Part shown: piece by piece, positions 1,058-33,335 of the stretch
Position numbering within the stretch: position 1 is the stretch's first letter
How the letters are laid out: every line of letters begins with the position of its first letter
Assembly: GCF_900128995.1 (NCBI RefSeq)
Contig: NZ_FQUE01000018.1
Location: 1-34,187, forward strand
DNA length: 34,187 nt
DNA from: Loktanella atrilutea
Lineage (GTDB): Bacteria > Pseudomonadota > Alphaproteobacteria > Rhodobacterales > Rhodobacteraceae
Direction of reading: 5' to 3'
Notes under the pieces: generated by a model
What the model was told of the DNA's origin: nothing
The model's input: the letters and a program-made list of their open reading frames with translations, nothing else
Database searches by the model: none
Translations under genes and position numbers: made by a program

Positions 1058-1067
1058 CGGATTCCTC

Positions 1068-1097
1068 TTGAACCTCTAGTTGCTAGAGACATTAGGT
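1068..1097 (+). promoter_or_regulatory. MerR-type operator/promoter for the metal ATPase
   Basis: A -35-like TTGAAC (1068-1073) is followed by a perfect 6-bp inverted repeat, CTCTAG-TTG-CTAGAG (1074-1088), and a weak -10-like TTAGGT (1092-1097). The spacer is 18-19 bases, longer than the usual 17, as in promoters that MerR proteins remodel. It starts 11 bases from the regulator start and lies about 50 bases before the ATPase start, so one site can serve activation and autoregulation. Confidence 0.8.
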
Positions 1098-1144
1098 GGA
1101 CAGATAAGCGAAGGCAACTGCCCGTGCGGGGCAAGAGGAACACG

Positions 1145-6771: not shown

Positions 6772-8330
6772 GGGTTTGCATCCTGTTTGGAGGTCCAGCG
6801 ACCGCTGAGGCGATCGACGAACGCATTGATGTAAAGGCCATTCATCAGGTGCACCCGCAACCCGGCCACGGCCGGGTGGCCGGCCCAAAGCGGGAATGTC
6901 GTCTGTGCCACAGCGGCGAAGGCAAAACTTGCGAGCGCCATGACGATGATCGCCCAGATCAGCCCGTCGGGTTCGGGCGGCAGCGGTAGCGTCTGCATCG
7001 ACAGCCATGTCGCACCGTCCTGCAAGGCAAAGTAGGATGCGGTTGCAGCAACCGACATGACGACCGTTCGCCAGGTCAAAGCCCGCGGCGCCGCGTCAGC
7101 CAGACCCTGTGCGATCAAATAGACAACGCCGAAGATCAGGATGGCACCGAGGGCGATGGCCTGTGGCGGCTTGGACAAGATCCCGAACATCAGACCGACA
7201 CCGACGTAAAGGGTAAGCGCCAGGGTGAAGGACCGGGCCACTGCTCTGAACCCCGGCACCGCGACCGGCCCGGGCCGCCTAATACCGGCCACGTCACGCA
7301 CGGCCCCGCCGGACGACAGGAAGGCATGCGCCTTGTAAAGCGAATGTGCCACGATATGCAGTAGGGCCAGCGGAAACAGTGCCAGGCCGCATTGCAGCAC
7401 CATGAACCCCATCTGCGCACAGGTCGACCAGGCGAGTGCGGTCTTGACCGCCGGTTGCGTCAACGACACTGCCGCCCCGACCAGGGCACTGAAACCGCCC
7501 ACCAGCGCCAGCACAGCCAGCACACCCGGCGCCGCAATCAGCACGTCGGCGAAGCGGATCAGCAAAAACCCGCCCGCGTTCACGACGCCCGCATGAAGCA
7601 AGGCAGAGACAGGCGTCGGCGCTTCCATGACTTCCGTCAGCCAGCCATGCGTGGGCACCAATGCTGACTTGAAAATCGCGGCGACCGCCAACAGCAGGGC
7701 GGCCAGCCACAAGGACCCGCCTGCCGCACCCGTCCGGGCGGCCGCGTTGATCGCGGCGATATCGGCGGTGCCGAAGCCCGCCACGAGAATCGCGCCGGCG
7801 CACACCAGCGCCGCACTCGCCACAAGCCCACTCAGGGCCTTCTTGCGGGCGGCGCGGCGGGCCCGCGGCCGGTCGGCGTAGAACAAGAGCAGCCGGTTCA
7901 GCGCCATGCCGGTCGCCACCCAACCGACCGCAAGCTGGAGGATGTTGCCAGCCGTCACAAGAAGCAGGACGCAGGCAATTGTGGTTGCCATCCAGGCCAT
8001 GAACGCCGCCTGCCGCGCTTCGCCATCAAGGGCCACGCGCGAGAACCGCAAGACGATCCAGCCGACGAAGGCCACGGTCATCGCCATGGCGATGCTGACA
8101 AAGTCGCCGCGTGCCGACAGGCCGATGGACATGGCGCCGATCAGCGGACTAGTCGCGGGGCCTGCCACGGCCAGAGTCAGGGCCGCAAGGGACACCAGTC
8201 CCAAGGCGGCAAGCGACGCCAGTTCCGGCAGACGCAGGGACCATGCGCTGCGGGTCGGGGGGTAACGCGCCGCCACCAGCAGGGCGGCGATGGCCAATGC
8301 AAGCGGCGACACAAGAAGCAGAATTGTCAT
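6768..8330 (-). CDS. dabB: DabB, NuoL/MrpA-like proton-channel subunit
   Basis: This is a 520-residue polytopic membrane protein of the proton-conducting antiporter family (NuoL, NuoM, Mrp-like). It is hydrophobic throughout and keeps the family core: LVPTHGWLTEVMEAPTPVSALLHAG in the middle, a VSLTQPAVKTALAWSTCAQMGFM stretch, and a HIVAHSLYKAHAFLSSG helix. In DAB systems this subunit couples proton movement to DabA. The frame runs upstream to 8393, but ATG 8330 is chosen because GAGG lies 6 bases before it and a hydrophobic helix starts at once. It is the first gene of the operon and overlaps dabA by four bases. Confidence 0.9.
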   Translation of the reverse strand: MTILLLVSPLALAIAALLVAARYPPTRSAWSLRLPELASLAALGLVSLAALTLAVAGPATSPLIGAMSIGLSARGDFVSIAMAMTVAFVGWIVLRFSRVALDGEARQAAFMAWMATTIACVLLLVTAGNILQLAVGWVATGMALNRLLLFYADRPRARRAARKKALSGLVASAALVCAGAILVAGFGTADIAAINAAARTGAAGGSLWLAALLLAVAAIFKSALVPTHGWLTEVMEAPTPVSALLHAGVVNAGGFLLIRFADVLIAAPGVLAVLALVGGFSALVGAAVSLTQPAVKTALAWSTCAQMGFMVLQCGLALFPLALLHIVAHSLYKAHAFLSSGGAVRDVAGIRRPGPVAVPGFRAVARSFTLALTLYVGVGLMFGILSKPPQAIALGAILIFGVVYLIAQGLADAAPRALTWRTVVMSVAATASYFALQDGATWLSMQTLPLPPEPDGLIWAIIVMALASFAFAAVAQTTFPLWAGHPAVAGLRVHLMNGLYINAFVDRLSGRWTSKQDANP

Positions 8331-8407
8331 TGAAAACCTCACAGAACATGATCTTCCGGACGTATCGCGTCCTCTTGACATAAAAAAATACATTGTCTGG
8401 ATGAAAA

Positions 8408-8426
8408 CGTTCCGTTTTACAGAACG
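8408..8426. promoter_or_regulatory. LysR-type T-N11-A dyad in the dabB-lysR gap
   Basis: CGTTC (8408-8412) and GAACG (8422-8426) form a perfect 5-bp inverted repeat with a 9-base spacer. This contains the T-N11-A motif typical of LysR-type regulators. The dyad ends two bases before the lysR ATG, which suits autoregulation. It is the best operator candidate in the 98-bp divergent gap; a TTGACA at 8375-8380 could be the -35 of lysR, but no good -10 follows. Confidence 0.5.
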
Positions 8427-8428
8427 CC

Positions 8429-9328
8429 ATGCGGCTTAACTATCACCATCTGCGCTACTTCGAAGAGGTGGCTCGCGAAGGGAACCTGACCCGCGCCGCG
8501 GAGCGGCTGAACCTGTCCCAGTCGGCCCTGTCCACCCAGATCCGGCAGCTGGAGGACAGGTTGGGCCACCCGCTGTTCACCCGCACCAATCGGACGATGG
8601 TCCTGACAGAGGCGGGCCATATCGCCTTGGACCACGCCATACGAATCTTTGGCGTCGGTGACGATCTGATTGCCACGCTGACACGTAGCGGCGGCACCAT
8701 TGGCCCCTTGCGAGTGGGCGCACTCTCGACGCTATCGCGCAATTTTCAGCTTCGGTTTCTGCGGCCTATTCTGGCGGATGACGCTGCAGACCTCGTCCTG
8801 TCGTCGGGAAGCAGCCAGACTTTGCTGCGTGCACTGGAGGACTTGGCGCTTGATGTCGTCCTGCTGACCGATCCGCCCCCGCGAGAGACGTTTCCCGACT
8901 TGGTCGCACACCGTCTGGCAGAGCAGCCCGTTGCGATCCACGGCACGGTTCGGCGTCTGACGCATCCGACCCTGAACGCCCTTCTGTCTGCAGAGCCCGT
9001 GATCCTGCCGACCGAAAGCTCAATCCGGACGGGGTTCGACAGTCTTGTCGCCCGCCTCGGCGTCACGCCCCGGATCGCGGCGATCGTCGACGATATGGCG
9101 ATGGTCCGGCTGCTTGCGCGCGATGACGTTGGGCTGGCCATTACACCGGCGGTCGTGCTTGCCGATGAACTGGCCCAGGGGCTGCTCTGGACGGCTCCGT
9201 TTCCCCTCGAGATCGTCGAAAGCTTCTACGCTGTCACCGCCAAACGAACGTTTCCACATCCGCTGTCGAGCCGTTTGTTGTCCGGGAATGCGGCGGATTT
9301 GATCGAAGAGTTTAATGCATCGGCTTAG
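8429..9328 (+). CDS. LysR-family regulator divergent from dabBA
   Basis: This 299-residue LysR-type regulator has an N-terminal winged helix-turn-helix at about residues 3-62 (YHHLRYFEEVAREGNLTRAA, then LSQSALSTQIRQLE and LFTRTNRTMVLTEAG) and a substrate-binding domain from about 90. The NYHHLRYF beginning is typical of the NhaR-like branch. It is divergent from dabBA, so it probably controls carbon uptake, perhaps according to inorganic carbon or a central metabolite; the ligand is unknown. No clear Shine-Dalgarno precedes ATG 8429, but the start is fixed by the conserved N-terminus. Confidence 0.9.
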   Translation: MRLNYHHLRYFEEVAREGNLTRAAERLNLSQSALSTQIRQLEDRLGHPLFTRTNRTMVLTEAGHIALDHAIRIFGVGDDLIATLTRSGGTIGPLRVGALSTLSRNFQLRFLRPILADDAADLVLSSGSSQTLLRALEDLALDVVLLTDPPPRETFPDLVAHRLAEQPVAIHGTVRRLTHPTLNALLSAEPVILPTESSIRTGFDSLVARLGVTPRIAAIVDDMAMVRLLARDDVGLAITPAVVLADELAQGLLWTAPFPLEIVESFYAVTAKRTFPHPLSSRLLSGNAADLIEEFNASA

Positions 9329-14276: not shown

Positions 14277-15833
14277 TTAGCGTGACGGCTTGAAGTTCCA
14301 CGGCAGCAGGTCGTCGAGGCGGTTTTGGGGGTGGCCGGTGGCGATCGCCGTGAGGGTGGCCTTCAGATAGGCGAAAGGCTCGATGCCGTTGATCTTGCAG
14401 GTCTCGATCAAGGAGGCGATGCGGCCCCATGCGATGCCGCCTTCGTCGTGACCGGCAAAGAGTGCGTTCTTGCGACTGAGGGCGATGGGTCGGATCAGGT
14501 TTTCGACGCGGTTGTTGTCGATCTCAACGCGGCCGTCGGTCAGGAAAGTTTGCAATCCGTCCCAGTGATTGTGGATGTAGGTGAGCTTTTCACCCAGCCG
14601 GGATTTGGCGGAGATCTTGCGGCGTTGCGCCTGTAGCCAGTCGCCGAAGGCGGCAACCAGAGCCGCGGTGCGGGCCTGACGGGCTGACAGCCGGTAGCTT
14701 GGCAAGTTACCACGGATGTCGGCTTCGACAGCATAGATTTCGGCAATGCGGCGCAGGCCTTCGGCCGCAATTTCAGAACCGTCGCGGTCAAAGACCTCTT
14801 TCAGCTTTCGCCGGGCGTGCGCCCAGCAATGGGCGACACGAACGGGGGCACCACCTTTGCGGCTCGGTTTGGTCAGCCTGTTGTAGCCGGTGTAACCGTC
14901 GATCTGCAAAATGCCGTCAAAGCCAGCCAGGAAGGTTTCGGCATTCTCGCCTGCGCGGCCGGGTGCGTAGAAGTACACCACGCCGGGCGGGTCCTCGCTG
15001 CGCCAGGGTCGGTCATCGCGCGCCAGTGCCCAGAGGTATCCGGTCTTCGTCGTCCCGCGCCCCGGATCCAGCACCGGGGCCGTCGTTTCGTCCATGAACA
15101 GCTTGCCCGATCGTTTCAGGTGTTCAGCCAGCCGGTCGACGACGGGCTTGAGATGGAACGCCGCCTTACCAACCCAATCGGCCAGCACGGCGCGGTGCAG
15201 ATCAAGACCCGCCCGCGCCAGGATCTGGCTCTGTCTATATAGCGGAAGGTGATCTGCATACTTGCTGACCAGTACATGAGCGATGCTGGCCTCGGTCGGC
15301 AGGCCGCCCATGATCAGATGCGATGGTGCTGGGGCTTGGGTGACCCCGTCGGTGCAGGTCCGGCACGCATATTTGGGGCGCACGGTGACGACGATGCGCA
15401 GCTGTGCCGGCACGATGTCCAGCCGTTCGCTGCGGTCTTCGCCGATCCTGTGCATGACACCGCAGCCGCAGGGGCAGATCAGACTGGCAGGCTCAATGAC
15501 CTCCTCGATGCGCGGCAGTGCGGCCGGCAGATTGCCGATGGTGCGCTTTGGCGCGGGTTTGGTCTTCCCGGTGTCTGCTTTGGCGGCACGGGCTTCCTTT
15601 TCCGCTTCAACCTCGGCCAGTGCGATGGAGAGGTCCTCGAAGGCCAGTTGCCGTTCGTCCTCGGACAGCTTCTCCGACCGTTTGCCATGCAGGGCATGGA
15701 TCAGCTCGGCGATCAGATGCTCTTGGCGCTTGGTGATATCCTTGAGGGCCGCCACCTCTTCCAGCAACGCCTGAACCGCCGCGCGCTGTGCAGCGGGGAT
15801 TGTAGACAGGTCAATGACAGGGGACGCAATCAT
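14277..15833 (-). CDS. tnpC: IS66 transposase TnpC
   Basis: This is the 518-residue IS66-family transposase. An N-terminal coiled coil (about 20-55, ending KRSEKLSEDERQLAFEDL) leads to a zinc-finger-like ICPCGCGVMHRIGEDRSERLD region near 115-140 and a CRTC pair. The catalytic core includes KLFMDETTAPVLDPG, DGYTGYNRL, HCWAHARRKLKEV and DNNRVENLIRPIALSRKNALFAG. The C-terminal SLIETCKINGIEPFAYL is the family end. The length is normal and no stop interrupts it. It lies 54 bases after tnpB. Confidence 0.95.
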   Translation of the reverse strand: MIASPVIDLSTIPAAQRAAVQALLEEVAALKDITKRQEHLIAELIHALHGKRSEKLSEDERQLAFEDLSIALAEVEAEKEARAAKADTGKTKPAPKRTIGNLPAALPRIEEVIEPASLICPCGCGVMHRIGEDRSERLDIVPAQLRIVVTVRPKYACRTCTDGVTQAPAPSHLIMGGLPTEASIAHVLVSKYADHLPLYRQSQILARAGLDLHRAVLADWVGKAAFHLKPVVDRLAEHLKRSGKLFMDETTAPVLDPGRGTTKTGYLWALARDDRPWRSEDPPGVVYFYAPGRAGENAETFLAGFDGILQIDGYTGYNRLTKPSRKGGAPVRVAHCWAHARRKLKEVFDRDGSEIAAEGLRRIAEIYAVEADIRGNLPSYRLSARQARTAALVAAFGDWLQAQRRKISAKSRLGEKLTYIHNHWDGLQTFLTDGRVEIDNNRVENLIRPIALSRKNALFAGHDEGGIAWGRIASLIETCKINGIEPFAYLKATLTAIATGHPQNRLDDLLPWNFKPSR

Positions 15834-15887
15834 GACCCGAGACTACGATAAAACCCCAGCAAAAACACGCAAAAGACAGCGGTTGAT

Positions 15888-16241
15888 TCATTCTGCCGCA
15901 GCTGGCGGGCGCGCCTCCAGAGCCTTGACGCGGCGCCAGTCGAGCCCGGCAAACAGCGCCTCGAACTGGGCATGGTTGAGCGTCATGATCCCGTCCTTGA
16001 TGGCGGGCCAGGTGAAGGTTGCATCCTCCAGCCGCTTGTAGGCCATCACCAAACCCGTGCCGTCCCAATAAAGCAGTTTCAGCCTGTCAGCCCGGCGCGA
16101 GCGGAACACAAACACTGTGCCTGTGAACGGATCCTTGCGCAGCACCGACGACACCAGTGCAGCCAGGCCATCATGCCCTTTGCGGAAGTCGACGGGCTGC
16201 GTGGACACCAGAACACGCACCCGGTTTGAGGGGAACATCAT
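15888..16241 (-). CDS. tnpB: IS66 accessory protein TnpB
   Basis: This 117-residue IS66 Orf2 protein has the family pattern VRVLVSTQPVDFRKGHDGLAALV, then DPFTGTVFVFRSRRADRLKLLYWDGTG and a final KRLEDATFTWP segment. It is required with TnpC for IS66 transposition, though its biochemical role is poorly known. The ATG at 16241 overlaps the tnpA stop as ATGA and is preferred over the longer open frame. Confidence 0.93.
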   Translation of the reverse strand: MMFPSNRVRVLVSTQPVDFRKGHDGLAALVSSVLRKDPFTGTVFVFRSRRADRLKLLYWDGTGLVMAYKRLEDATFTWPAIKDGIMTLNHAQFEALFAGLDWRRVKALEARPPAAAE

Positions 16242-16627
16242 GATCCTGCTGCCAAGGCGCGCACGACCGACGCAATCCGCTCCGCCGAGGCTCCGGTTTC
16301 CAAACGGATCGCCACCGCGCCCGCGACGATCTCGGGCCGGTCCGCGGTGCCCACGGCACAACGGGGGCCATCATCAACAGGGCTAATCATCAATGATGCA
16401 AATTCCACCGGATCCTCCGGCGCCGGCAGCACCAGCCGCCCTTTGCGTGCCAGCGTGCGCCAGGCAGAAACGTGGTTCGCCGGAACATCATGACGCCGCG
16501 CCACTGCGTTCACGGTCACACCCGGCATCAGCGTCTCCGCCACGATCCGGGCCTTCATCTCATCAGGCCACTTCCGGTTCCGACGGCCACGACCGCCAAC
16601 CGGGAGAAACTCCAATGTAGTCTCCAT
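16238..16627 (-). CDS. tnpA: IS66 protein TnpA (helix-turn-helix)
   Basis: This 129-residue first IS66 protein contains a transposase-type helix-turn-helix: WPDEMKARIVAETLMPGVTV, then NAVARRHDVPANHVSAWR. It probably binds the element ends. The ATG at 16627 (METTLEFLPVGG) gives the usual N-terminus; an upstream ATG at 16648 is possible. The reading frame overlaps tnpB by four bases. Confidence 0.9.
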   Translation of the reverse strand: METTLEFLPVGGRGRRNRKWPDEMKARIVAETLMPGVTVNAVARRHDVPANHVSAWRTLARKGRLVLPAPEDPVEFASLMISPVDDGPRCAVGTADRPEIVAGAVAIRLETGASAERIASVVRALAAGS

Positions 16628-16711
16628 GGAGAAAATCCATTCCAACAATCACCAAGGTCCAAAAACCCGATCAGGATGAAAGCCGGAAGGTGGGAGGCAG
16701 GAAACGCTTAC

Positions 16712-17464: not shown

Positions 17465-17881
17465 TCAGTCATGCGGTTTATTCAAAGGAGGCGACGAAAT
17501 CTTCAGCCTGTCAACAATATGTTCCAATATCGGGGCGATCTTTTCAGTCGGATACGGTTTTGGAAAGAACGTTGATCCTTCTGGAACCTGCATATCTGCG
17601 AAGTCCACTTTTCCCGATGCGATGACGATCGCGACCGGGGGCCAGACGTTACGCACATGGGTGGCGAGCTCCATACCATCCATGGAGCCTGGCATGTCGA
17701 TGTCGGTGAACAGGATGCCGATGTCTTCGTGCAGCTCCATCAGAACGAGGGCGGCATCGGCGTTGGCAGCATCGTAGACCCTGAACCCAGCGTCCTCGAT
17801 CATATCAACGGCTTCCATTCGGATCAGGGGTTCGTCCTCGACCACAAGGATGGCGGGCAGCACTTTCGCTGTAGAGTTCAT
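17465..17881 (-). CDS. single-domain response regulator
   Basis: This 138-residue protein consists of one CheY-like receiver domain with no output domain. Acidic residues Glu15-Asp16, the phospho-acceptor Asp60 in LFTDIDMPG, Ser89 and Lys108 in FPKPY are all present, so it should be phosphorylatable. It lies 29 bases after the HWE kinase gene and is the third gene of the kaiC-kinase-regulator operon, so it is the obvious acceptor for that kinase. Stand-alone receivers of this type often act through protein-protein contacts or as phosphate sinks. Its target is unknown. Confidence 0.9.
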   Translation of the reverse strand: MNSTAKVLPAILVVEDEPLIRMEAVDMIEDAGFRVYDAANADAALVLMELHEDIGILFTDIDMPGSMDGMELATHVRNVWPPVAIVIASGKVDFADMQVPEGSTFFPKPYPTEKIAPILEHIVDRLKISSPPLNKPHD

Positions 17882-17910
17882 ACCAGCTCGTCCTCGCTCT
17901 TCTTTTTAGA

Positions 17911-19368
17911 TTATACTGTGAGGCCTGACAGAGGTGCTGTCAGATTGAAGGTCAAACCTCCCCGATTGTAGGCAAGTTCCGCCGCGCCAGTAAAATACCC
18001 TGCAAGTGCTCGTTCGATCATGCGGCTACCAAACCCCCGCCGCGTGGGCGTCATGACCTCAGGTCCACCACTTTCGCGCCATGAAAAAGCGAAGCCAGCA
18101 TCTGCGTCCTCCTGACTGACGTGCCAGGCAATATCGATGCGTCCCTGATCGGTAGAGAGTGCCCCATACTTGGTAGCATTCGTCGCAAGCTCGTGTAGAG
18201 CCATCGTCAACGCCAGGGCTTGCTTTGATCCGATCGGAAGGTTGGGCCCCGTAACACCGATACGGCCAAGACCGGTGCGATGCGGTATCAGCGCAGCCTC
18301 TACGACCTCGGCAATCTGCGTCTCTGTCCAAGTCGATTTGACCAGCCTGTCATGCGCTGCCGACATCATGCTGATGCGGGACTGGATGGCGATGCGGGCA
18401 TCATCAAGAGTGTCAGCCTGCCTCAGGGTCTGCGATACCATCGCGTGCACCATCGCAAGCGTATTCTTCACCCGATGGTTCATCTCGCCCAGCATGAGCT
18501 GCCGCTGCTCCTGAGCCACCTTGATGTCGTGGATGTCGGTGCAGCTCCCATACCACCGGGTGATATTACCGCTCATATCCCGCATGGGCTGTGCACGACC
18601 CAATACCCAGCGGTATTTGCCGGACTTATGCTTCAACCGATATTCGATCTCATAGGGTTGACCAGTCTTCAGGCTCTCTCGCCATGCTCCCCAGGCACGC
18701 TCCTGGTCATCGGGGTGAAACATCCCGTTCCAGGCATCACCATCAGTGCATCCCTCTGGAACGCCTGTAAAGTCATACCAGCGTTGATTATAATAATCAT
18801 GAAAACCATCAGGCTGTGTCGACCAGATCATTTGATCGACGGCATCGGCGATGGCATGGAATTTGGCTTCACTGTCCTGCAACTGACGTTCGCGTAGCTC
18901 TAGTTTCTCTACGTAACGTCGCGCGTCGTGCTGCCGCGCCCTTGCATTGAGGGCGGACGTGACCGCACGCACCAACTCTTCGGCATGCAGCGGCCGTGAC
19001 AGCAATGTTGCGTTTCGCAGTGTATCGATCCGCGCGACGGCTGCGTCAGATCGCCGGCCCACGCCCTGGTTGGCAAGGACGATGAAGGGAATGTCCGACC
19101 ACGGGGGTTGGATGTCCAGGACATCGGTCAGCCGATCTGTTCCGGGTGAACTTAAAGCCTCTTCGGTGACAAGGACGGCTCCCACCTGATCTGCAAGAAG
19201 ATTGGCTAGGTGATCAAGCGTCTCAGCCACAACGACCGGCAGGTTTGCCTCCTGCAAAAGCTGAGCCGCCACTGCCGCATCTCGACCGCGTGGCGCCAGG
19301 ATGGCGACAGTGGCTGTGAGTTCAGCCGGCGGCACGTGCGTGCCAGATGAAACGTCGCGATCGGTCAT
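17911..19368 (-). CDS. HWE-family histidine kinase with receiver-like and PAS domains
   Basis: This is a 485-residue soluble sensor kinase. Residues ~18-142 have the length and alternating pattern of a receiver domain, but the usual phospho-Asp is not evident (VGAVLVTEEAL in its place), so it may be a pseudo-receiver. A coiled coil (~147-170) leads to a PAS domain (~165-285) with FHAIADAVDQMIWSTQPDG, NQRWYDFTG, FHPDD and WVLGRAQPMRD. The HWE transmitter follows: phospho-His298 in GEMNHRVKNTLAMVHAM, N-box HELATNATKYGALS, and WRE at 430-432. It has no membrane segment, so the input is cytoplasmic. The start ATG overlaps the kaiC stop (ATGA). Confidence 0.9.
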   Translation of the reverse strand: MTDRDVSSGTHVPPAELTATVAILAPRGRDAAVAAQLLQEANLPVVVAETLDHLANLLADQVGAVLVTEEALSSPGTDRLTDVLDIQPPWSDIPFIVLANQGVGRRSDAAVARIDTLRNATLLSRPLHAEELVRAVTSALNARARQHDARRYVEKLELRERQLQDSEAKFHAIADAVDQMIWSTQPDGFHDYYNQRWYDFTGVPEGCTDGDAWNGMFHPDDQERAWGAWRESLKTGQPYEIEYRLKHKSGKYRWVLGRAQPMRDMSGNITRWYGSCTDIHDIKVAQEQRQLMLGEMNHRVKNTLAMVHAMVSQTLRQADTLDDARIAIQSRISMMSAAHDRLVKSTWTETQIAEVVEAALIPHRTGLGRIGVTGPNLPIGSKQALALTMALHELATNATKYGALSTDQGRIDIAWHVSQEDADAGFAFSWRESGGPEVMTPTRRGFGSRMIERALAGYFTGAAELAYNRGGLTFNLTAPLSGLTV

Positions 19369-20882
19369 GTTGCGGTAGCAACGCCTTCTTCTCCCAATGG
19401 CAACAGATCGCCTCGGGCGGGTGTATATACCGGTGCGCCCGACAGAATGCCGGTAAAATTGCGAATGGGGTCGCCGATCACAATGCCGCGCTCATCGATA
19501 CGAAGCTCCCGGATCGAGCGCTCATGATCCGATGTCCGTGTCTTGATCACGGAAATGGATTTGCGAACTTGCCCGGCGGCCTCGAAAAACCGGAGCATCA
19601 CGACTGTGTCGGCGAGGTAACTGATGTCGACGTCCGAGCGCAGATCGCCGGTGATGCCGTGTTGCCCAAGAATCATCAGCGACACGACGCCTTGCTGGGC
19701 AAGATAGCTCAGTAATTCGTGCATCTGTAGCACAAGAAAATTATCGCTGGGCATTGCATGAAGATAAGCATTGAGACTGTCGATGACGACAACATTGACC
19801 TGGTCTCTCTCCACCGCGGTGCGCACGGCGTTGGCAAATTCCCCCGGCGAAAGCTCCGCCGGATCGATCTGGCGAATCTCCAAAACGCCTTCATCGATAA
19901 AGGGTTGCAGATCCATGCCGAGTGCTTTCGAGCGGATCATCAGCGTCGAGAGGCGTTCGTCAAAAAGGAAGTAGGCGGCCTTCTGGCCGCGCTTCAGCGC
20001 GGCAATCATGCAGCGCACGGCGGTTGTTGTTTTGCCCACTCCGGCGGGACCGGCCAGCAGGGTATTGGTCCCCGGGAACAGACCGTCCCCCAGCAGGGCA
20101 TCGAGGGCGGCGAGGCCACTGGTGACCGGCTCGCTGGTAAAGCTGCGGCCATGGTCAGCCGCGACCAGTCGCGGGTAGACACAGATGCCGCCGGGTTCGA
20201 TGGAAAAGTCGTGGTAGCCGCCGTAGTATTGCACGCCTCGCATCTTGACAATACGTAGTCGCCGGCGCTCGGAGCCGAAATCGCTGACCAGCTGCTCCAG
20301 CGAGATCACACCGTGGGCGATGGAATGCAACTGGAGATCACCGGGCTCGGAAGTACGATCATCCAGCATCAGGACAGTGCATTTACGCCGGGAGAAGAAA
20401 TGCTTCAGTGCCAGAATCTGACGCCTGTAGCGCAGGGGGTTCTGTGCCAGAAGGCGAAGTTCCGACAGGCTGTCGAGGACGACCCGGGCAGGGTCAAGTC
20501 GTTCAACAAGGCCTATGATGCCCCGCACCGTCTCTCCCAGCTCAACCTCGCTCGGATGCAGGAGCGTTTGCTCATGGTCCGCGCTAAATTCATCCTCGGC
20601 GACCATCTCAAACAGATTGATTCCATCGAGTGTCCAGCCATGGGATTTAGCTACGGCCCGCAATTCGGATTCCGTTTCCGACAGCGTAATGTAGAGGCTG
20701 CGGTCGCCCGCGCGACGCCCTTCCATAAGAAACTTCAGAGCCAACGTTGTCTTGCCCGTCCCGGGCGTGCCCTCGACGAGATACAGTCGTTCCGGTGTCA
20801 GTCCGCCTCTGAGCACTTCATTCAAGCCGGGCGTACCGGTCATGAGCTTGGGTTGGAGATCGTCCACTGTGATGTTGGCCAT
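19365..20882 (-). CDS. kaiC: KaiC-like double-domain ATPase
   Basis: This 505-residue RecA/RadA-superfamily protein contains two KaiC domains. Walker A motifs are at 38-46 (GTPGTGKTT) and 278-286 (GPAGVGKTT), and Walker B-like strands are ARVVLDSLSEL and VNVVVIDSLNAY. The catalytic acidic pair is SE (68-69) in the first domain and DE (308-309) in the second. At the position of the cyanobacterial KaiC phosphosites Ser431-Thr432, this protein reads Ser421-Tyr422 in DVDISYLADT, so one hydroxyl site remains. The KaiC-type end, IKTRTSDHERSIRELRI, is present. No kaiA or kaiB is in the window. It is co-transcribed with the HWE kinase and receiver, so it probably feeds a phosphorelay; clock function is not implied. 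Confidence 0.9.
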   Translation of the reverse strand: MANITVDDLQPKLMTGTPGLNEVLRGGLTPERLYLVEGTPGTGKTTLALKFLMEGRRAGDRSLYITLSETESELRAVAKSHGWTLDGINLFEMVAEDEFSADHEQTLLHPSEVELGETVRGIIGLVERLDPARVVLDSLSELRLLAQNPLRYRRQILALKHFFSRRKCTVLMLDDRTSEPGDLQLHSIAHGVISLEQLVSDFGSERRRLRIVKMRGVQYYGGYHDFSIEPGGICVYPRLVAADHGRSFTSEPVTSGLAALDALLGDGLFPGTNTLLAGPAGVGKTTTAVRCMIAALKRGQKAAYFLFDERLSTLMIRSKALGMDLQPFIDEGVLEIRQIDPAELSPGEFANAVRTAVERDQVNVVVIDSLNAYLHAMPSDNFLVLQMHELLSYLAQQGVVSLMILGQHGITGDLRSDVDISYLADTVVMLRFFEAAGQVRKSISVIKTRTSDHERSIRELRIDERGIVIGDPIRNFTGILSGAPVYTPARGDLLPLGEEGVATAT

Positions 20883-21346
20883 CGAATCGCTGTTCCTGTC
20901 GAATTCGCATATAGGTGGACGCTCTACAGATGGGTGAACTTGCCAGTAAAGCTGTGTTCAGTTTAGGTCCATAAAAAGCGCTTTAACGGATGTCGGCGAT
21001 CTTCAGCAAACGTTTTTAATGCGCCCAAGCAGGTTCTTTGCTTCACTCATATTGCATTGCACGAGTTGAACATAAATGCCGTCGAATATCTCGCCTTGTT
21101 GTGCGACGATGGGCATGTCGAAGTAATCTGGTCGCTGGATCAGACCACCCGCAAGTTCGATATCAACTGATCGGAACATGACGGGCCGCCCTTCGTGCCC
21201 CCGCCATCGAAAGGGTTCGGATCCACGGTGATTGACCAGATGGCGGGCTCCGTTTTTGGCCGCCAATGTTCACCGAGACTACGCACCCACGACCACCATA
21301 ATACGGCCACGAAGTTTTGCGATACAGGAAGCATTGGACGAGGAAC
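20883..21346. other. divergent intergenic stretch between kaiC and the 5TM kinase
   Basis: These 464 bases separate two divergent signalling genes. A leftward frame from ATG 21179 to 21003 (58 residues, MFRSVDIELAGGLIQRPDYF at its start) is open, but its ribosome site is poor and I do not recognise it. No clear operator or promoter pair stands out. Confidence 0.35.
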
Positions 21347-23062
21347 ATGCCGGCAATGAAACCGCTTTGGATGGAGCTGCTGGCACTGCATGCCATGGTC
21401 GGGCTGTCTGTGATCCTGTGGTCACTCTTGGACACCTATATGCCGGCGGTCTCGAGAAGTCGCATTGGTCCTGGGATGGTCCTGGGCCTTGTGGGCGTCA
21501 TGACGATGGCTATGGCGGTAGAGGTGCTGCCTGGAATTCGAATCGATTTGCGTCACGCCCTGATCGCAGCAGGTGGACTGGTGTTCGGTCCCGTGTCAGG
21601 CTTGATAACCGGCGCTATTTCGAGTGCAGTGCGGATCAGCTACGGGGGTGCCGGTGTTCTGGCCGGCCTAACTGGTATTGCATCGTCAACATTTCTCGGA
21701 GGTGCGGCGAACCTTGCATTGAAAGGCCGCATACCAGATCTTCAGCAGTGTATCGTTTTCGCGGCTGTCGTGGGGCTCGGCGCTCTGACAAGTCTTCTGC
21801 TCGTTCCGAGCGAAGTGCGGGGCACGATCTTCCAACAATCGTGGCTCCCGCTCCTGACCCTGACATTTACAAGCACCCTGTTTACCTCCTACTTCTTCTC
21901 AATCGAGCGTGCGAGATACGTCGAGTTTCAGAACCTTTCGCTTTACCGCAAGATGGTCGATGCGCTTCCGGATTGCTTGAACGTCAAGGATCTCGACGGC
22001 AGATTCATCATCGCGAACAAAGCGACCGCAGACCTCATGAAGGCGCGGGACGCATCGGATCTCATAGGAAAAACAGATTTTGATTTCTATCCCCATGCCG
22101 TTGCGGCAGGATACCGGGATGACGAGACCGCCGTCCTAAAAGGAACCGGTGCTCAGCGGTTGGAGCAGATGGTCGATTTCAAGGACGGAAAGATCGGGTG
22201 GCTAGAGACAGTCAAGGTTCCGATCAGAAGCGAGGCCGGCGCCTTGACCGGATTGATTTCCTACAATCGCGATATAACCGATATCCATGCATCGAACGAA
22301 TTGAAGGCGCAGTTCGTGTCCACGATAAGTCACGAAATACGCACGCCACTGACATCCATCTGTGGCTCGTTGCGACTGATTGCGGAGGCTTTTCCCGACG
22401 AACTGCCACCCAAGGCAGTTCGACTAATTGCGGTTGCTGACCGCAATGCGCGGCATCTCAACGAGCTGATCGACAATCTGCTCGTCTCCGAGAAACTCGA
22501 CGCCGGGCAGACAGACTTTTCGCCTGAGATTTTGGATATGACCCGGCTCGCGAAAGATGCGGTCGAAAGCATGAAGCACTACTTGCCGCATAAGGATCTG
22601 TCCTGGGCTATGTCGCACTCGGCCGAGGACACAAAAATCCATGTTCACCCGCTTCGGCTGCAACAGGTGCTGCTCAACCTTTTGTCCAACGCAGCCAAAT
22701 TCTCTCCGGCTAAAGGTATCATCGAAGTCGATATTTTACAGATCGATGGTATGGTTCGCCTTATCGTGCGTGACGCGGGTCCTGGCGTGCAACCTGACTT
22801 CGAAGCCTCATTGTTCAGTCGGTTCCGTCAGGAAGAGGCAACCGCGCGGGTCAACAAGGCTGGTGGAACGGGCCTTGGACTCAGTTTGGCAAAATCTTTT
22901 GTTGAACACATGTCCGGCAGCATCTCCTATCGAAGGCTGAACGATAAGACTGAATTTTGCGTCGAATTTCCGTCCCTGTCTGACAGTCATGAATTGAAGG
23001 GGCATTTGGCCCCAAATCGGTTATCAGCATCGGATCCGGCATTCGGTGCAGGCGCGGCCTGA
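21347..23062 (+). CDS. membrane sensor histidine kinase (5TM-LYT, PAS, HisKA, HATPase)
   Basis: This is an approximately 571-residue membrane kinase. Residues ~5-190 contain hydrophobic helices with GIRIDLRHALIAAGGLVFGP and AVRISYGGAG, the pattern of the 5TM receptors of the LytS type. A PAS domain follows at ~200-315 (MVDALPDCLNVKDLDGRFII, YNRDITDIH). Then come HisKA with phospho-His329 in STISHEIRTPL and a HATPase domain with NLLSNAAKFSP, DAGPGV and GGTGLGLSLAKSF. ATG 21347 and ATG 21356 are both possible, as GAGGA at 21340-21344 is close to the first and far from the second. No response regulator follows, so it may signal to the receiver encoded at 17465. It is divergent from kaiC. Confidence 0.88.
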   Translation: MPAMKPLWMELLALHAMVGLSVILWSLLDTYMPAVSRSRIGPGMVLGLVGVMTMAMAVEVLPGIRIDLRHALIAAGGLVFGPVSGLITGAISSAVRISYGGAGVLAGLTGIASSTFLGGAANLALKGRIPDLQQCIVFAAVVGLGALTSLLLVPSEVRGTIFQQSWLPLLTLTFTSTLFTSYFFSIERARYVEFQNLSLYRKMVDALPDCLNVKDLDGRFIIANKATADLMKARDASDLIGKTDFDFYPHAVAAGYRDDETAVLKGTGAQRLEQMVDFKDGKIGWLETVKVPIRSEAGALTGLISYNRDITDIHASNELKAQFVSTISHEIRTPLTSICGSLRLIAEAFPDELPPKAVRLIAVADRNARHLNELIDNLLVSEKLDAGQTDFSPEILDMTRLAKDAVESMKHYLPHKDLSWAMSHSAEDTKIHVHPLRLQQVLLNLLSNAAKFSPAKGIIEVDILQIDGMVRLIVRDAGPGVQPDFEASLFSRFRQEEATARVNKAGGTGLGLSLAKSFVEHMSGSISYRRLNDKTEFCVEFPSLSDSHELKGHLAPNRLSASDPAFGAGAA

Positions 23063-27761: not shown

Positions 27762-27943
27762 TGTGATGAGCGACAACCATCTTGGCCGGTGCCGACAACC
27801 ACCTTGGCCGGTGGGGCTGAACGGAGGACGGGCATGCCCGTCCGGAGGGCAGCCCCACCGGCCTGATTGATATTTTGGGAGTAGGTGCTGGTCGCTGCGG
27901 GTTGGTAAGCCGGAATCCTCTGCGTTCATACGGAGGAGCCGGT

Positions 27944-29452
27944 TTGGCCTACAAACCCATCACCGACCAGCAATTGAGATTATACATGACCGACCTACAA
28001 AACCACAGTCAGCGCACATCGGCCGCCCGCGCCAGGTTCAGCGAGCGGAGCGCCAGGCGTTTCGATGCGGACCCGACCCCGCCTTCGCAGCGCAAGATCG
28101 TTCACGGACGCGCATTGGCCGATCCCCTTGAAGGCTATTGGGAGACCGACCTTCTGCCGCTGCTTCTGACCGACAGCGCGTTACAGGCGGTCACCCTGCT
28201 GCGCCATCTTCAAAGCGAGCATCCTCGGGCCTTCCCTGATGATCGTGTCCGCCGCACCCTGGAGCGGCGGGTGCGGCAGTGGCGGGCGCTGAACGGTCCC
28301 GAGCGCGACATCATCTTCCGCCAGACACCCGAGCCGGGATACATGGCACAGTCCGACTTAAACCATGCCGAGGAACTGGAGGTGACAATCGCAGGCCAAT
28401 CGTTCCCGCACCTGCTTTACCACTTCGTCATGGTCTACAGTCGTTGGGAGCATGTCGGCGTGGTTCTTGGCGGGGAAAGCTTCACGGCGCTGGCCGAGAA
28501 CTTGCAGCAGGCCCTCTGGTCACTCGGCGGTGCGCCGCAAAACCACCGGACTGATAGCCTCTCGGCCGCTTTCCGCAACCTGACCGCCGACCAGCGTAAG
28601 GACATGACCAAGCGCTATGATGCGTTCGTCGGCCATTACGGCATGGACGCCAGCCGCAACAATCGCGGTGAGGCCCATGAGAACGGGGCGGTTGAATCGC
28701 AAAACTGGCACCTGAAGACGGCCATCAAGCAGGCGCTGATCCTGCGGGGCAGCCGCGACTTTGCCTGCATCGAGGACTACCGGCGTTTCATCGACATGCT
28801 GGTGGCGCGGCGCAACCGCCAGCGGGCGGCAGCCGTTCAGGCGGAACGGGCCCACCTGAAGCCTTTGCCGCAGCGGCGCACCACCGACTTCACCGAGATC
28901 GTGGTGCCGGTCTCGCGGACTGGCGGTTTCCTGGTCAAGAGCATCTTTTACAGCGCTCCGTCGCAGCTGATCGGGCAACGTCTGCGTGTCCACCTTTACG
29001 ATGATCGCATCGAGGCGTTTCTCGGCGCCGCCCTGGTCGTCAGCCATCCCCGGGCCCGTGGTCGCGGCGATGGTCACCGCGTCCATGTCATCAACTACCA
29101 CCATGTCATCCACTCCCTGCGACGCAAACCGCAGGCCCTGTGGAGCTCGATCTATCGCGACAGCCTGTTCCCCCGGACCGAATACGCCGAAGCCTGGAAG
29201 GTGCTGCAACGGGACCTGCCAAGACGGGATGCCTGCCGCCGCATGGTCGAACTACTCTTCATCGCCCATGAGCAAGCCTGCGAGGCGGAACTGGCGCATC
29301 TGCTGGCGGCTGACCTTTATGCGGGCCAGGTGCCGGACACCAAGGCCCTGGCTTCACGGCTGGCGCCAAGGCTCATGACGATGCTCAAGGATGTGGCTGT
29401 CGCCCACCCATCGCTGGCCAGCTTCGACGCTCTGCTGGGGGCAAGCGCATGA
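27944..29452 (+). CDS. istA: IS21-family transposase IstA
   Basis: This is a 502-residue DDE transposase. The start is taken as TTG 27944, because GGAGGA ends about 6 bases before it and the protein then begins with the family sequence MAYKPITDQQLRLYM. An N-terminal helix-turn-helix (SAARARFSERSARRFD) leads to the rve-type core, with HHFVMVYSRWEHVGVVLGG-like residues near 155-175, then RNNRGEAHENGAVESQNWHLK, where the catalytic Glu lies, and a C-terminal Mu-type domain, FLVKSIFYSAPSQLIGQRL. The length is normal and there is no stop. It overlaps istB by four bases (ATGA). Confidence 0.93.
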   Translation: MAYKPITDQQLRLYMTDLQNHSQRTSAARARFSERSARRFDADPTPPSQRKIVHGRALADPLEGYWETDLLPLLLTDSALQAVTLLRHLQSEHPRAFPDDRVRRTLERRVRQWRALNGPERDIIFRQTPEPGYMAQSDLNHAEELEVTIAGQSFPHLLYHFVMVYSRWEHVGVVLGGESFTALAENLQQALWSLGGAPQNHRTDSLSAAFRNLTADQRKDMTKRYDAFVGHYGMDASRNNRGEAHENGAVESQNWHLKTAIKQALILRGSRDFACIEDYRRFIDMLVARRNRQRAAAVQAERAHLKPLPQRRTTDFTEIVVPVSRTGGFLVKSIFYSAPSQLIGQRLRVHLYDDRIEAFLGAALVVSHPRARGRGDGHRVHVINYHHVIHSLRRKPQALWSSIYRDSLFPRTEYAEAWKVLQRDLPRRDACRRMVELLFIAHEQACEAELAHLLAADLYAGQVPDTKALASRLAPRLMTMLKDVAVAHPSLASFDALLGASA

Positions 29453-30249
29453 CTGTCCGCGAGGTCGACATCCACACGCTGCCCAGCATGCTGACCGCGC
29501 TGCGGCTGCCCAGTTTCCAAAAACTCTGGGCCGAGATCGCCGCGCGCGCCGACACCGAAGGCTGGCCCGCCGCCCGTTTCCTCGCCGTGCTGGCGGAATA
29601 CGAACTGGCCGAGCGCGACATGCGTCGCATCCGGCGCCATCTGAACGAGTCGCAGCTGCCCGCAGGCAAGATGCTGGCGACCTTCGACTTCAAGGCCCTG
29701 CCGACCCTGCCACGCGCCCGGGTGGAGGCTTTGGCGGCCGGCGACTGGCTGGACGGGGGCGGCAACCTGATCGCCATCGGCAATTCCGGCACCGGCAAGA
29801 CACACATCCTTTGCGCGATCGGTCATGTTCTGATCGAGGCAGGACACCGCGTCTTCTACACCCGGACCAGCGATCTGGTGGAAAGGCTCCAGGCGGCCCG
29901 CGGCGATCTCGTCCTCGAGGCCGCACTGGCAAAACTCGACAAGTTCGACCAGATCATCCTCGACGACATCACCTACGCCCACAAGGATCGGGCCGAAACC
30001 GGCGTCCTCTTTGAACTGATCGCCCGGCGCTACGAATACCGCAGCATTGCCATCGCGGCCAATCAGCCGTTCAGCGGATGGGATCAGATCTTCCCGGACA
30101 AGGCCATCGACCGCCTTGTCCACCAAGCAAGCATCCTCGAGATGAACGCCAAAAGCTTCCGTCAGCGCGCCGCAGCCTCCAACAAGAATGCTCAGGCCGA
30201 AACGTCAGCGACAACCAATACCGACAACCAAAACGAAGGAGAAACCTGA
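29449..30249 (+). CDS. istB: IS21-family ATPase helper IstB
   Basis: This 266-residue AAA+ ATPase is related to DnaC and drives IS21 target-DNA selection with IstA. Walker A is GNSGTGKTH at about 112-120, Walker B is IILDDI near 164-169, and sensor-like AIAANQPF follows. The N-terminal helical part (LPSMLTALRLPSFQKLW) is typical. The C-terminal tail (NKNAQAETSATTNTDNQ) is low-complexity and probably disordered. The start overlaps the istA stop. Confidence 0.93.
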   Translation: MTVREVDIHTLPSMLTALRLPSFQKLWAEIAARADTEGWPAARFLAVLAEYELAERDMRRIRRHLNESQLPAGKMLATFDFKALPTLPRARVEALAAGDWLDGGGNLIAIGNSGTGKTHILCAIGHVLIEAGHRVFYTRTSDLVERLQAARGDLVLEAALAKLDKFDQIILDDITYAHKDRAETGVLFELIARRYEYRSIAIAANQPFSGWDQIFPDKAIDRLVHQASILEMNAKSFRQRAAASNKNAQAETSATTNTDNQNEGET

Positions 30250-31372: not shown

Positions 31373-32131
31373 TTACGCAGCCATTTTCAGTTTCATTGCA
31401 GGCGTGATGCCGCCAATACCCATGTTCGGGCGATCGTTGTTGTAAGTCCAGAGCCACTGGGTGGCGAAGTGCTGGGCCTCCTCGATGCTGTTGATGATGT
31501 ATTGGTCCAGCCATTCGTGCCGGATGGTGCGGTTGTAGCGCTCGATGTAGGCGTTCTGCTGGGGCTGACCGGGCGGGATGTGGGCCAGGGAAATGCCATG
31601 TTTCTCAGCCCATTCCAGGAGCGCATGACTGATGTATTCGGGGCCGTTGTCCACGCGGATGGTCTTTGGCTTCCCGCGCCATTCAATGATGTTGTTCAGG
31701 CTGCGGATGACCCGCTCTGTCGGAAGGGAGAAATCCACCTCGATCCCCAGACCTTCGCGGTTGAAGTCATCCAGCACGTTTAGCAACCGGAAGGCCCGAC
31801 CGTCCTCAAGCCGATCGGCCATAAAGTCCGTCGACCAGGTCACATTAGGCCTCTCTGGCACAGCCAGAGCGTCTGGCACGTCCCTCTTCAACCGTTTGCG
31901 TGGCTTGATCCGCAGGTTCAGCTCAAGGGCGCAATAGATCCGATAGACGCGTTTGTGGTTCCACGGGTGCCCCTTCACGTTGCGCAGATGCAGGAAACAC
32001 AGCCCAAATCCCCATGTCTTGCGAGCATCGGTCAGGCCGACCAGAAGGTCAGCGATCAACTCGTTCTCATCGCTCAAAAGTGGGCTGTAGCGATAGCACG
32101 TCTCGCTCACACCGAATGCCCGGCAGGCCAA
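31373..32131 (-). pseudogene. IS3-family OrfB (IS407-type), 5' truncated
   Basis: About 252 codons of an IS3-family transposase remain: [15 protein letters not shown] at the left of the protein, [15 protein letters not shown], the DDE core with [43 protein letters not shown] and [15 protein letters not shown], and the end [18 protein letters not shown]. OrfA and the first ~25-30 residues of OrfB, usually ending in a ...HHG-type motif before LACRAFG, are missing; homology ends exactly where another IS3-family element starts at 32134. A small hairpin, CCCGTT-TTT-AACGGG, lies just past the stop and may be near the original element end. It cannot transpose on its own. Confidence 0.88.
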
Positions 32132-32187
32132 AGTGGACTTGCCCGAAAAATTTGGAGAGCACCAACTGAGGAACCAGGAGGTGTTCT

Positions 32188-32472
32188 ATGGGAAACGCAA
32201 ACAGACCGACGCCGGAGTTTCGGCGTGAAGCGGTGCGGCTGGCACTGACCAGCGGCCGGACGCGGCGGGAGATCGCGGAGGATCTTGGCATTGGCCTTTC
32301 GACGCTGACGCGGTGGCTGAGCCAAGAGCGCGATGCCCGCGAGCCGAGCGAGGCGCCGGTCGACGTGCATGCCGAGCTGAAGCGGCTGCGACGGGAGAAT
32401 GCGGTCCTGAAGCAGGAGCGCGACATCTTAAAAAAAGCCGCGGCCTTCTTCGCGAAAGAGACAAGTCGATGA
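32188..32472 (+). CDS. IS3-family OrfA
   Basis: This 94-residue protein has a helix-turn-helix (FRREAVRLALTSGRTRREIA, LGIGLSTLTRWL) and a leucine-zipper-like coiled coil (ELKRLRRENAVLKQERDILKK). AGGAGG lies 6 bases before the ATG. The run A7 at 32430-32436 (frame TTA AAA AAA G) is a typical slippery site: a -1 shift there would join OrfA to the OrfB frame as a single transposase. Without the shift OrfA ends at TGA 32470-32472, overlapping the OrfB ATG. Confidence 0.92.
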   Translation: MGNANRPTPEFRREAVRLALTSGRTRREIAEDLGIGLSTLTRWLSQERDAREPSEAPVDVHAELKRLRRENAVLKQERDILKKAAAFFAKETSR

Positions 32473-33335
32473 CCTTCGGCTTCATCGAGGCGGAGAAGGC
32501 CAGCTTCCCGATCAGTCGGATGTGCCGTGCCCTGGGCGTCAGCCAGAGCGGCTTCTTCGCGTGGCAGGACCGTCCGGCCTGTCGCCGCCAGCAGCAGGAC
32601 ATGGTCTATCTCGCACACATCCGGACGGCCTTCGCTCTGTCGAACGGCACCTATGGCAGCCCGCGCATGCACCGCGACCTCATCGACGAGGGCCATGAGA
32701 TCGGGCGGCATCGCACGGCGCGGCTGATGCGCGAGAACCGGTTGATCGCGCGGCAGAAGCGGCGCTTCAAACGCACGACCGACAGTGAACATGCCTGGCC
32801 TGTCGCGCCCAATCTCGTGGCGCAGGACTTCGCGGCAGACGGCCCGGACCAGAAGTGGGGGGCCGACATCTCCTACATCTGGATGGCGGAGGGCTGGCTC
32901 TACCTCGCCGTCGTGCTCGACCTCTTCTCGCGACGGGTCGTCGGCTGGGCCACGAGTGACCGCCTGAAGCGCGACCTCGTCGTCGAAGCGCTGCGCCGGG
33001 CTCTGGTTGCTCGCAACCCTGCGCCGGGGCTGGTCCATCATTCCGACCGCGGATCGCAATACTGCTCTATCGACTACCAGGCGCTGCTCCGCCAACGTGG
33101 CATTCTGATCTCGATGAGCGGGCGCGGGAACTGCTACGACAACGCGATGGTCGAAACCTTCTTCAAGACCATCAAGTCCGAACTGGTCTGGCCCGTCGCC
33201 TGGCAATCCCGCCAGCAGGCCGAAAACGCCGTCGCCAGATACATCGACGGGTTCTATAACCCCGTCAGGCGTCATTTATCGCTCGGCTTCCAGAGCCCCA
33301 TCGCCTTCGAGCGAAAGGCCCGGGAAGTGAGCTAA
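32469..33335 (+). CDS. IS3-family OrfB transposase
   Basis: This is a 288-residue DDE transposase when started at ATG 32469, or the C-terminal part of an OrfAB fusion made by -1 frameshifting at 32430-32436. An HTH_21-like region (SRMCRALGVSQSGFFAW, YGSPRMHRDLIDEGHEIG) precedes the rve core: first Asp in KWGADISYIW, second Asp in HHSDRGSQY, Glu in NAMVETFFKTIKSEL. The NPVRRHLSLGFQSPIAFE end is typical of the IS3 subgroup. The frame is intact, so the element may be active. Confidence 0.93.
   Translation: MTFGFIEAEKASFPISRMCRALGVSQSGFFAWQDRPACRRQQQDMVYLAHIRTAFALSNGTYGSPRMHRDLIDEGHEIGRHRTARLMRENRLIARQKRRFKRTTDSEHAWPVAPNLVAQDFAADGPDQKWGADISYIWMAEGWLYLAVVLDLFSRRVVGWATSDRLKRDLVVEALRRALVARNPAPGLVHHSDRGSQYCSIDYQALLRQRGILISMSGRGNCYDNAMVETFFKTIKSELVWPVAWQSRQQAENAVARYIDGFYNPVRRHLSLGFQSPIAFERKAREVS

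Follow-up and report, generated by a model that had tools for sequence, protein, structure and literature searches.

A kaiC-like gene, a pseudo-receiver HWE histidine kinase gene and a lone receiver gene in Loktanella atrilutea: a candidate KaiC-gated two-component switch

Results

Genes at the locus

We analysed a 34,187-nucleotide stretch of the Loktanella atrilutea genome (contig NZ_FQUE01000018.1, positions 1 to 34,187 of the forward strand; hereafter the window), which carries on its minus strand a kaiC-like gene followed by the genes of a histidine kinase and of a stand-alone receiver. A preliminary description, made from the sequence alone, had taken these for one leftward three-gene array, and the open reading frames and both junctions lie just as it placed them: the kinase start codon and the kaiC stop codon share four bases (minus-strand ATGA, 19368-19365), and the receiver gene follows the kinase gene after a gap of 29 bases (17910-17882). 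From this layout we infer that the three genes form one transcript. The unit had also been described as lacking kaiA and kaiB, and a search of the whole genome (46 contigs, 100% complete by a computed estimate) returned no match to KaiA and none to KaiB. The features are:

19365..20882, minus strand: kaiC-like gene, 505 amino acids (open reading frame list; PF06745, alignment with KaiC sequences from the PDB, clade tree)
about 20169-20843, minus strand: CI domain, and about 19470-20123, minus strand: CII domain (PF06745, 236.9 bits, two stretches)
20679-20681, minus strand: Ser68, at the place of Glu77 (alignment with PDB KaiC sequences)
19959-19961, minus strand: Asp308, at the place of Glu318 (same alignment)
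19617-19622, minus strand: Ser421-Tyr422, at the 431/432 places (same alignment)
17911..19368, minus strand: histidine kinase gene, 485 amino acids (Pfam HWE_HK and PAS_3, 16-sequence alignment, full-length model)
18931..19311, minus strand: pseudo-receiver, kinase residues 20-146, the presumed KaiC docking module (AlphaFold, Foldseek, profile, hhalign, pocket columns)
18547..18795, minus strand: PAS_3 domain, kinase residues 192-274 (Pfam, 77 bits)
17914..18498, minus strand: HWE kinase core, kinase residues 291-485 (Pfam HWE_HK, 81.2 bits against a cut-off of 22.8; alignment)
17465..17881, minus strand: stand-alone receiver gene, 138 amino acids (Response_reg, 57.9 bits)

The kinase N-terminus is a predicted pseudo-receiver

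An AlphaFold model of the N-terminal domain of the kinase has the (beta-alpha)5 fold of a receiver, with a predicted local distance difference test score (pLDDT) of 91.0 and a predicted template modelling score (pTM) of 0.85. Among the 50 Foldseek matches listed of 1537 in the PDB, 49 are receiver-containing proteins, a few of which we took to be so without their titles saying it, and one is a methylmalonyl-CoA mutase. A profile search with the domain gave 37 PDB matches at E values up to 1 (below 0.001 for two); by name, every one is a regulator (two-component, chemotaxis or transcriptional) or a sensor protein. hhalign aligned the domain to ten receivers from our data set with a probability of 95.6%. 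Neither the 50 Foldseek matches listed (of 1537) nor the 37 profile matches include a KaiB-like or SasA-like protein, and we rejected a KaiB-like or SasA-like N-terminus; nor was a SasA-type KaiB-like N-terminal domain found by family search, PF07689 having no match in the window's genome.

The phosphotransfer residues of a receiver are mostly missing from this domain in the members of the clade described below. The phosphoacceptor column, as aligned by hhalign, holds Glu69 in the window (Glu in 67/82 members, Asp in 4/82); the place of the conserved Lys, assigned by its position after the last strand, holds Arg125 in 82/82; and that of the acidic pair, assigned by its position after the first strand, holds Ala25-Pro26 (74/82 and 75/82). 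The domain has a signature of its own, G28-R29-D30, E69-E70, W90-S91-D92, N119 and R125-P126, complete in 58/82. The receiver-like N-terminus without its Asp that the preliminary description had proposed thus recurs in the predicted fold and in the Glu of the phosphoacceptor column, and an intact Asp was not seen in the window. Sequence and predicted fold together agree with what defines a pseudo-receiver, a receiver fold from which the phosphotransfer residues are missing; by its modelled fold, then, the N-terminal domain is a pseudo-receiver, which is new relative to a 2011 description of a related kinase.

The KaiC-kinase pair is conserved

We searched the same genome samples with KaiC and with a 46-row alignment of the kinase N-terminus. 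In 398 genomes of the phylum, 38 copies of the KaiC clade (above 390 bits) occur in 36 genomes, and a pseudo-receiver kinase gene lies directly downstream of all 38, the aligned parts being -3 to 66 bases apart. The 390-bit limit was set by us; below it, the pair is present in G375 and G457 (312-330 bits) and missing from G015, G578 and G790 (288-307 bits). Only four of the 36 carriers (G000, G278, G283 and G012) had supplied rows to the 46-row alignment under their G handles. Among 289 genomes of the class, the KaiC clade and the domain (above 90 bits) occur in the same 18, the next domain match scoring 31.2 bits; KaiC exceeds 500 bits in 17 of these, the eighteenth being G071, in which two contigs each hold a part of it. 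Genomes of the class had supplied alignment rows, so that co-occurrence there is by construction, the absence elsewhere not. The kinase adjoins KaiC in 30 of 31 named loci, the contig of the other ending first; named loci and sampled genomes may overlap. The pair is also present, at near-zero gene distances, in one metagenome-assembled genome of Acidobacteriota (L058). The full triplet of kaiC, HWE kinase and lone receiver occurs at 13 loci including the window. Conservation of the triplet elsewhere, on which the preliminary description had staked its reading, is borne out by these 13 loci and by the KaiC-kinase pair kept in 38/38 phylum copies.

The unit has the marks of accessory DNA: the pair occurs in 5/198 genomes of the family, it is missing from the one further genome of the genus that was sampled, and matches to the domain, counted irrespective of a neighbouring kaiC, occur in 220 of 72,556 plasmid records. 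The same kaiC-kinase-receiver triplet is annotated on a plasmid of Loktanella salsilacus. Transposase genes share the window's contig with the unit, and the contig looks like accessory DNA. KaiC and a two-component pair could then be ordinary operon neighbours, an accessory set travelling together without direct coupling. We regard this as improbable: the pair is kept across the phylum and in the Acidobacteriota genome, at near-zero distances and with the same N-terminal domain in front of different kinase engines, while little else around it recurs. A larger conserved island was rejected, no further gene family being found in more than 3/27 loci by a neighbour clustering that was rough (it caught kaiC and kinase in 23/27 and the receiver in 11/13).

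The domain itself has 40 phylum copies above 85 bits, leaving two as orphans with no KaiC beside them; a third orphan, L126, scores 68.5 bits, under the limit of that count. The three keep 5/11 (L100), 4/11 (L126) and 11/11 (L125) of the signature, and three cases decide nothing. They bear on another explanation, that the pseudo-receiver binds some other partner or a small molecule and that KaiC acts on the kinase elsewhere, or merely as an ATP-dependent remodeller. The pseudo-receivers of CikA and KaiA bind quinones, and that of CikA also binds KaiB (PMC12632262). The domain, however, stands beside KaiC in 38/38 phylum copies while PAS and engine vary or are missing, which makes it the sole part of the kinase kept throughout, and most of the signature is gone from two of the three orphans; with the orphans and the quinones on the other side, we hold this explanation to be unlikely.

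Two of the orphans are worth describing in their own right. One lies in the window's own genome (L100:3866-6223; C26:985865-988222) and is a pseudo-receiver-PAS-PAS-HisKA-receiver hybrid with no KaiC near, adjoining an aconitase-like gene (by eye) and having a PAS domain 73% identical to that of the operon kinase. The other (L125:1627-3350; G852:C11) is a pseudo-receiver HisKA kinase whose gene overlaps that of a lone receiver. The KaiC pair of that genome is on another contig, and the kinase is a possible second output acting in trans.

The kinase engine has been exchanged

The kinase core carries His298, His392, Asn397 and Trp430-x-Glu432, invariant in 16/16 aligned HWE kinases. We take the invariant His, the N-box His392/Asn397 and the WxE of 430-432 as marks of the HWE family, and His298 as the presumed site of phosphorylation. 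In a full-length model of modest quality (pLDDT 79.5, pTM 0.37, built on 16 sequences) a helix of residues 129-176 joins the pseudo-receiver to the PAS domain, and another, of residues 280-317, enters the kinase core. The lone receiver keeps Glu15/Asp16, Asp60 and Lys108 in an alignment of 13 lone receivers; no output domain was found in it, Response_reg being the only Pfam family up to E 1.

We classed 85 pseudo-receiver kinases, 82 linked to kaiC and the three orphans. Sixty are HisKA hybrids with a fused receiver (58 of them linked), 13 are of the window's kind (HWE with a separate receiver), ten are HWE with no lone receiver within 600 bases, and two are HisKA without a fused receiver (that of L058, and the orphan L125 with its lone receiver); an HWE core is thus present in 23/82 linked kinases, and some kinases of the group have no PAS domain. 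On a KaiC tree (a quick IQ-TREE run of 89 rows, in which long branches leave some placements unsure) the distribution of HWE and HisKA needs at least six changes, and the HWE-plus-receiver kind is nested among the hybrids; the well-supported branches force four changes for HisKA-REC, three for HWE alone and one for HWE plus receiver.

Compared with the hybrid of L118, the window is 78% identical in KaiC, 62% in the pseudo-receiver, 71% in PAS and 35% in the core, the last over only 65 residues; across eight linked hybrids, PAS identity to the window's kinase falls into two ranges, 67-73% (six hybrids) and 29-32% (L050 and L062). In the comparison with L118 the steep fall in identity comes at the core, which places the point of exchange behind the PAS domain in the window's branch, and the same comparison gives the receiver as fused in one form and a separate gene in the other. 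As judged from the KaiC tree and these alignments, the engine behind the pseudo-receiver has been exchanged, an addition to the 2011 description, and the constant part of the unit is KaiC with the pseudo-receiver.

The KaiC-like protein departs from cyanobacterial KaiC

Both Walker A motifs, GTPGTGKT (Lys44) and GPAGVGKT (Lys284), are present, and the catalytic pairs are Ser68-Glu69 in CI and Asp308-Glu309 in CII; the motifs, the SE and DE pairs and the Ser421-Tyr422 phosphosite had all been read correctly, as judged against PDB KaiC sequences. The protein scores 163.4 bits with the circadian KaiC equivalog TIGR02655, against a cut-off of 546.25, and this score, together with SE, DE and SY in place of EE, EE and Ser431/Thr432, led us to reject membership of the cyanobacterial clock family.

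We tabulated these places in 82 KaiC proteins of the clade. Left out of the counts were L107 (contig end), L035 (contig ends behind kaiC), L051 (kaiC over two frames), and L060 and L114 (kinase over two frames; probably one record twice). The Glu77 place holds Ser in 76 and Ala in six, and Glu in 0/82, with Glu78 kept in 79/82; the Glu318 place holds Asp in 77/82 and Glu in 5/82, with Glu319 kept in 82/82. The 431/432 places read SY (51), TY (26), SF (4) and GY (1), that is, Ser or Thr at 431 in 81/82 and Tyr (78) or Phe (4) at 432, as the preliminary description had asked to have tabulated; position 426 is Ser in 40, Thr in 21, Ala in 15 and another residue in six. Both P-loop lysines are kept in 82/82, as are Lys/Arg at places 224/226 and 457/459. 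Asp174 is invariant (82/82), at a place held by Gly, Ala or Ser in nine other KaiC used for comparison, and next to it Asp175 stands at the Glu183 place in 79/82.

In Synechococcus elongatus KaiC, Glu77 activates the CI water and Glu318 the phosphosite hydroxyls, and E318D is arrhythmic (PMC2777353); E77Q/E78Q KaiC has 22% of ATPase activity left and has lost KaiB binding (PMC5007536). The loss of Glu77 in all members and the change of Glu318 to Asp in most argue against an oscillator of the cyanobacterial type. Loss of Glu77 and absence of KaiB would make sense as a single change; KaiB is absent from 39 of 43 carrier genomes tested, these being the window's genome, 21 of the 31 named loci, 17 genomes of the class and four of the family. 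Because the 432 place is Tyr or Phe, the alignment suggests Ser/Thr421 as the more likely single phosphosite.

A KaiB-free hourglass or rudimentary daily timer would be another way to use such a protein: KaiC autophosphorylates Ser421 (perhaps Tyr422) and dephosphorylates slowly, and the kinase reads the phase. It has already been proposed for a Ramlibacter member of the group (PMC3164672), and the Ser or Thr at 431, the P-loop lysines and the basic residues at 224/226 and 457/459 are as it would need them; the Asp at the Glu318 place, given the arrhythmic E318D protein, the Tyr or Phe at 432, the variable position 426 and the missing CI Glu77 all speak against it, and we think such a timer has a small chance of being right.

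Other genes in the window

The remaining features of the window lie outside the unit. Transposase genes are found at:

14277-16648: IS66 transposase gene and neighbours (Pfam for IS66)
27875-30249: Mu-type transposase C-domain gene, which we take to be IS21-like
31373-33335: IS3-like genes (by eye)

Between kaiC and a divergent kinase gene is an HWE kinase remnant (20967-21356, plus strand), broken into two pieces that lie in different frames (32.7 and 18.9 bits); the divergent gene (21317-23062, plus strand) encodes a 5TM-5TMR_LYT region, PAS, HisKA and HATPase_c by Pfam. Farther away are a DabA inorganic carbon transporter gene with an adjoining Proton_antipo_M gene and a divergent LysR regulator (4414-9328), and a heavy-metal-type P-type ATPase gene with a divergent MerR regulator (614-3385).

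Discussion

We propose that the unit is probably a KaiC-gated two-component switch. KaiC would form a double-ring ATPase whose shape alters with its nucleotide state and perhaps with phosphorylation of Ser421; the kinase would dock on the ring through its pseudo-receiver; the docking signal would reach the HWE core by way of the long helix and the PAS domain; and the core would phosphorylate His298 and then Asp60 of the lone receiver, which may act by binding another protein. Docking of the pseudo-receiver on KaiC, in the role that the KaiB-like domain has in SasA, is the best reading of the comparative data because the linkage is strict and the kinase engine has been exchanged.

Several observations weigh against this proposal. 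Clade-specific KaiC residues are not significantly enriched in CI (15/67 against 6/42 conserved columns, Fisher p 0.33), which gives no hint of a docking face. No KaiC adjoins three of the pseudo-receiver kinases, one of which, L125, keeps the signature intact. Single-sequence Pfam search finds no Response_reg in the N-terminal domain. KaiB is present in 4/43 carrier genomes, beside a different KaiC in three, the fourth being G045. CI hydrolysis may survive through Asp174/Asp175, and Glu78 is kept in 79/82; with these three residues nearly all kept, a dead CI cannot be asserted.

With the CI general base lost and neither KaiB nor KaiA found in the window's genome, the change in KaiC that gates the proposed switch is unlikely to be a circadian cycle dependent on KaiB. 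A sensor of nucleotide or energy state, or at most a one-way timer, fits best, and we favour a switch or sensor over a clock. The preliminary interpretation, a phosphorelay driven by a KaiC ATPase state and possibly a timer or energy sensor, therefore survives in part: the KaiC-kinase unit is conserved and the predicted receiver fold lacks a normal phosphoacceptor pocket, but a KaiC-ATPase timer is less supported, Glu77 being lost in 82/82 and Glu318 replaced by Asp in 77/82.

The KaiC-kinase pair has been known since 2011, and the ideas of docking and of an hourglass are not new. De Luca et al. (2011; PMC3164672) described a kaiC group, the "dark-blue" group, whose members have SY, TY or SF at the phosphosite, lack kaiB and are followed immediately by the gene of a specific kinase; its Ramlibacter tataouinensis pair, Rta_04330/Rta_04340 (KaiC-Nt_HK), is co-transcribed by reverse transcription PCR. 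They named the kinase N-terminus RtaNt, noted its likeness to a receiver (19% identity) and a fainter one to SasA and KaiB (16% and 10%), and proposed that it docks on KaiC. The window and 81 other linked pairs share with that group a kinase with a homologous N-terminal domain directly downstream of kaiC, the domain being equated with RtaNt by the paper's description and not by the Ramlibacter sequence; the window has SY, as 81/82 of the clade have SY, TY or SF, and its genome has no kaiB. The kinase there is HisKA with HATPase_c, according to the figure legend, whereas that of the window is HWE with a separate receiver. In the literature searched, which included PMC5520375 and PMC11832031 and covered few subscription papers, we found no link of KaiC to an HWE kinase.

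Like the cyanobacterial KaiABC system with SasA and CikA, the window pairs a double-domain KaiC with a histidine kinase, and pseudo-receivers occur in CikA and KaiA; it differs in having no KaiA or KaiB match, an HWE kinase and a receiver without an output domain, and its KaiC differs in the loss of Glu77, the Asp for Glu318 and the Tyr at 432. Roseomonas sp. KE2513, whose genome holds the unit at L061, has a second system at L163:2433-6520, with kaiC, two kaiB and then a PAS-HisKA-receiver hybrid kinase. This and Bradyrhizobium BRADO1478-1481 (PMC3899966) resemble the window in that kaiC is clustered with genes for a PAS histidine kinase and for a receiver, which stands alone in BRADO and is fused to the kinase in L163; in both, unlike the window, kaiB lies between the genes, and the L163 KaiC has Glu77 and an SS site, with no pseudo-receiver kinase found there.

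There is also a sister KaiC group (kaiC with a GAF-GGDEF-EAL gene at L165:1732-5459, L166:4452-8206 and L167:3058-6821), 36-38% identical, which has also lost Glu77 (to Gly), has SY and has a partner gene directly downstream. That partner is a GAF-GGDEF-EAL protein of 764-770 amino acids in 3/3, with no pseudo-receiver match, so that KaiC proteins of the wider group adjoin different signalling outputs. Its N-terminus (about 160 residues, receiver-like by eye) aligned to the pseudo-receiver with an hhalign probability of 0.5% and had no Pfam receiver match; of its seven PDB matches (E 0.099-1.1), three are two-component proteins.

As a tentative evolutionary scheme, which we would not rate above a working idea, a KaiC lineage may have given up the CI hydrolysis that triggers KaiB binding and become a hub. 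A pseudo-receiver that looks permanently "on" by virtue of its Glu would plug KaiC into exchangeable engines (HisKA hybrid, HWE alone, HWE with a separate receiver); the CI acid has possibly moved to Asp174; and the sister lineage would have been plugged into enzymes of cyclic di-GMP.

KaiC relatives without KaiA or KaiB are found in many bacteria. The unit described here is small and often part of the accessory genome or of a plasmid, and its hosts include alphaproteobacteria that can be cultured, for example Paracoccus, Loktanella and Sulfitobacter. In it the kinase engine has been naturally exchanged with the presumed docking domain retained, and KaiC, docking domain and output are separable for work with purified proteins. 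If it is true that KaiC gates the kinase, a clock-protein family would here be working as a non-circadian switch.

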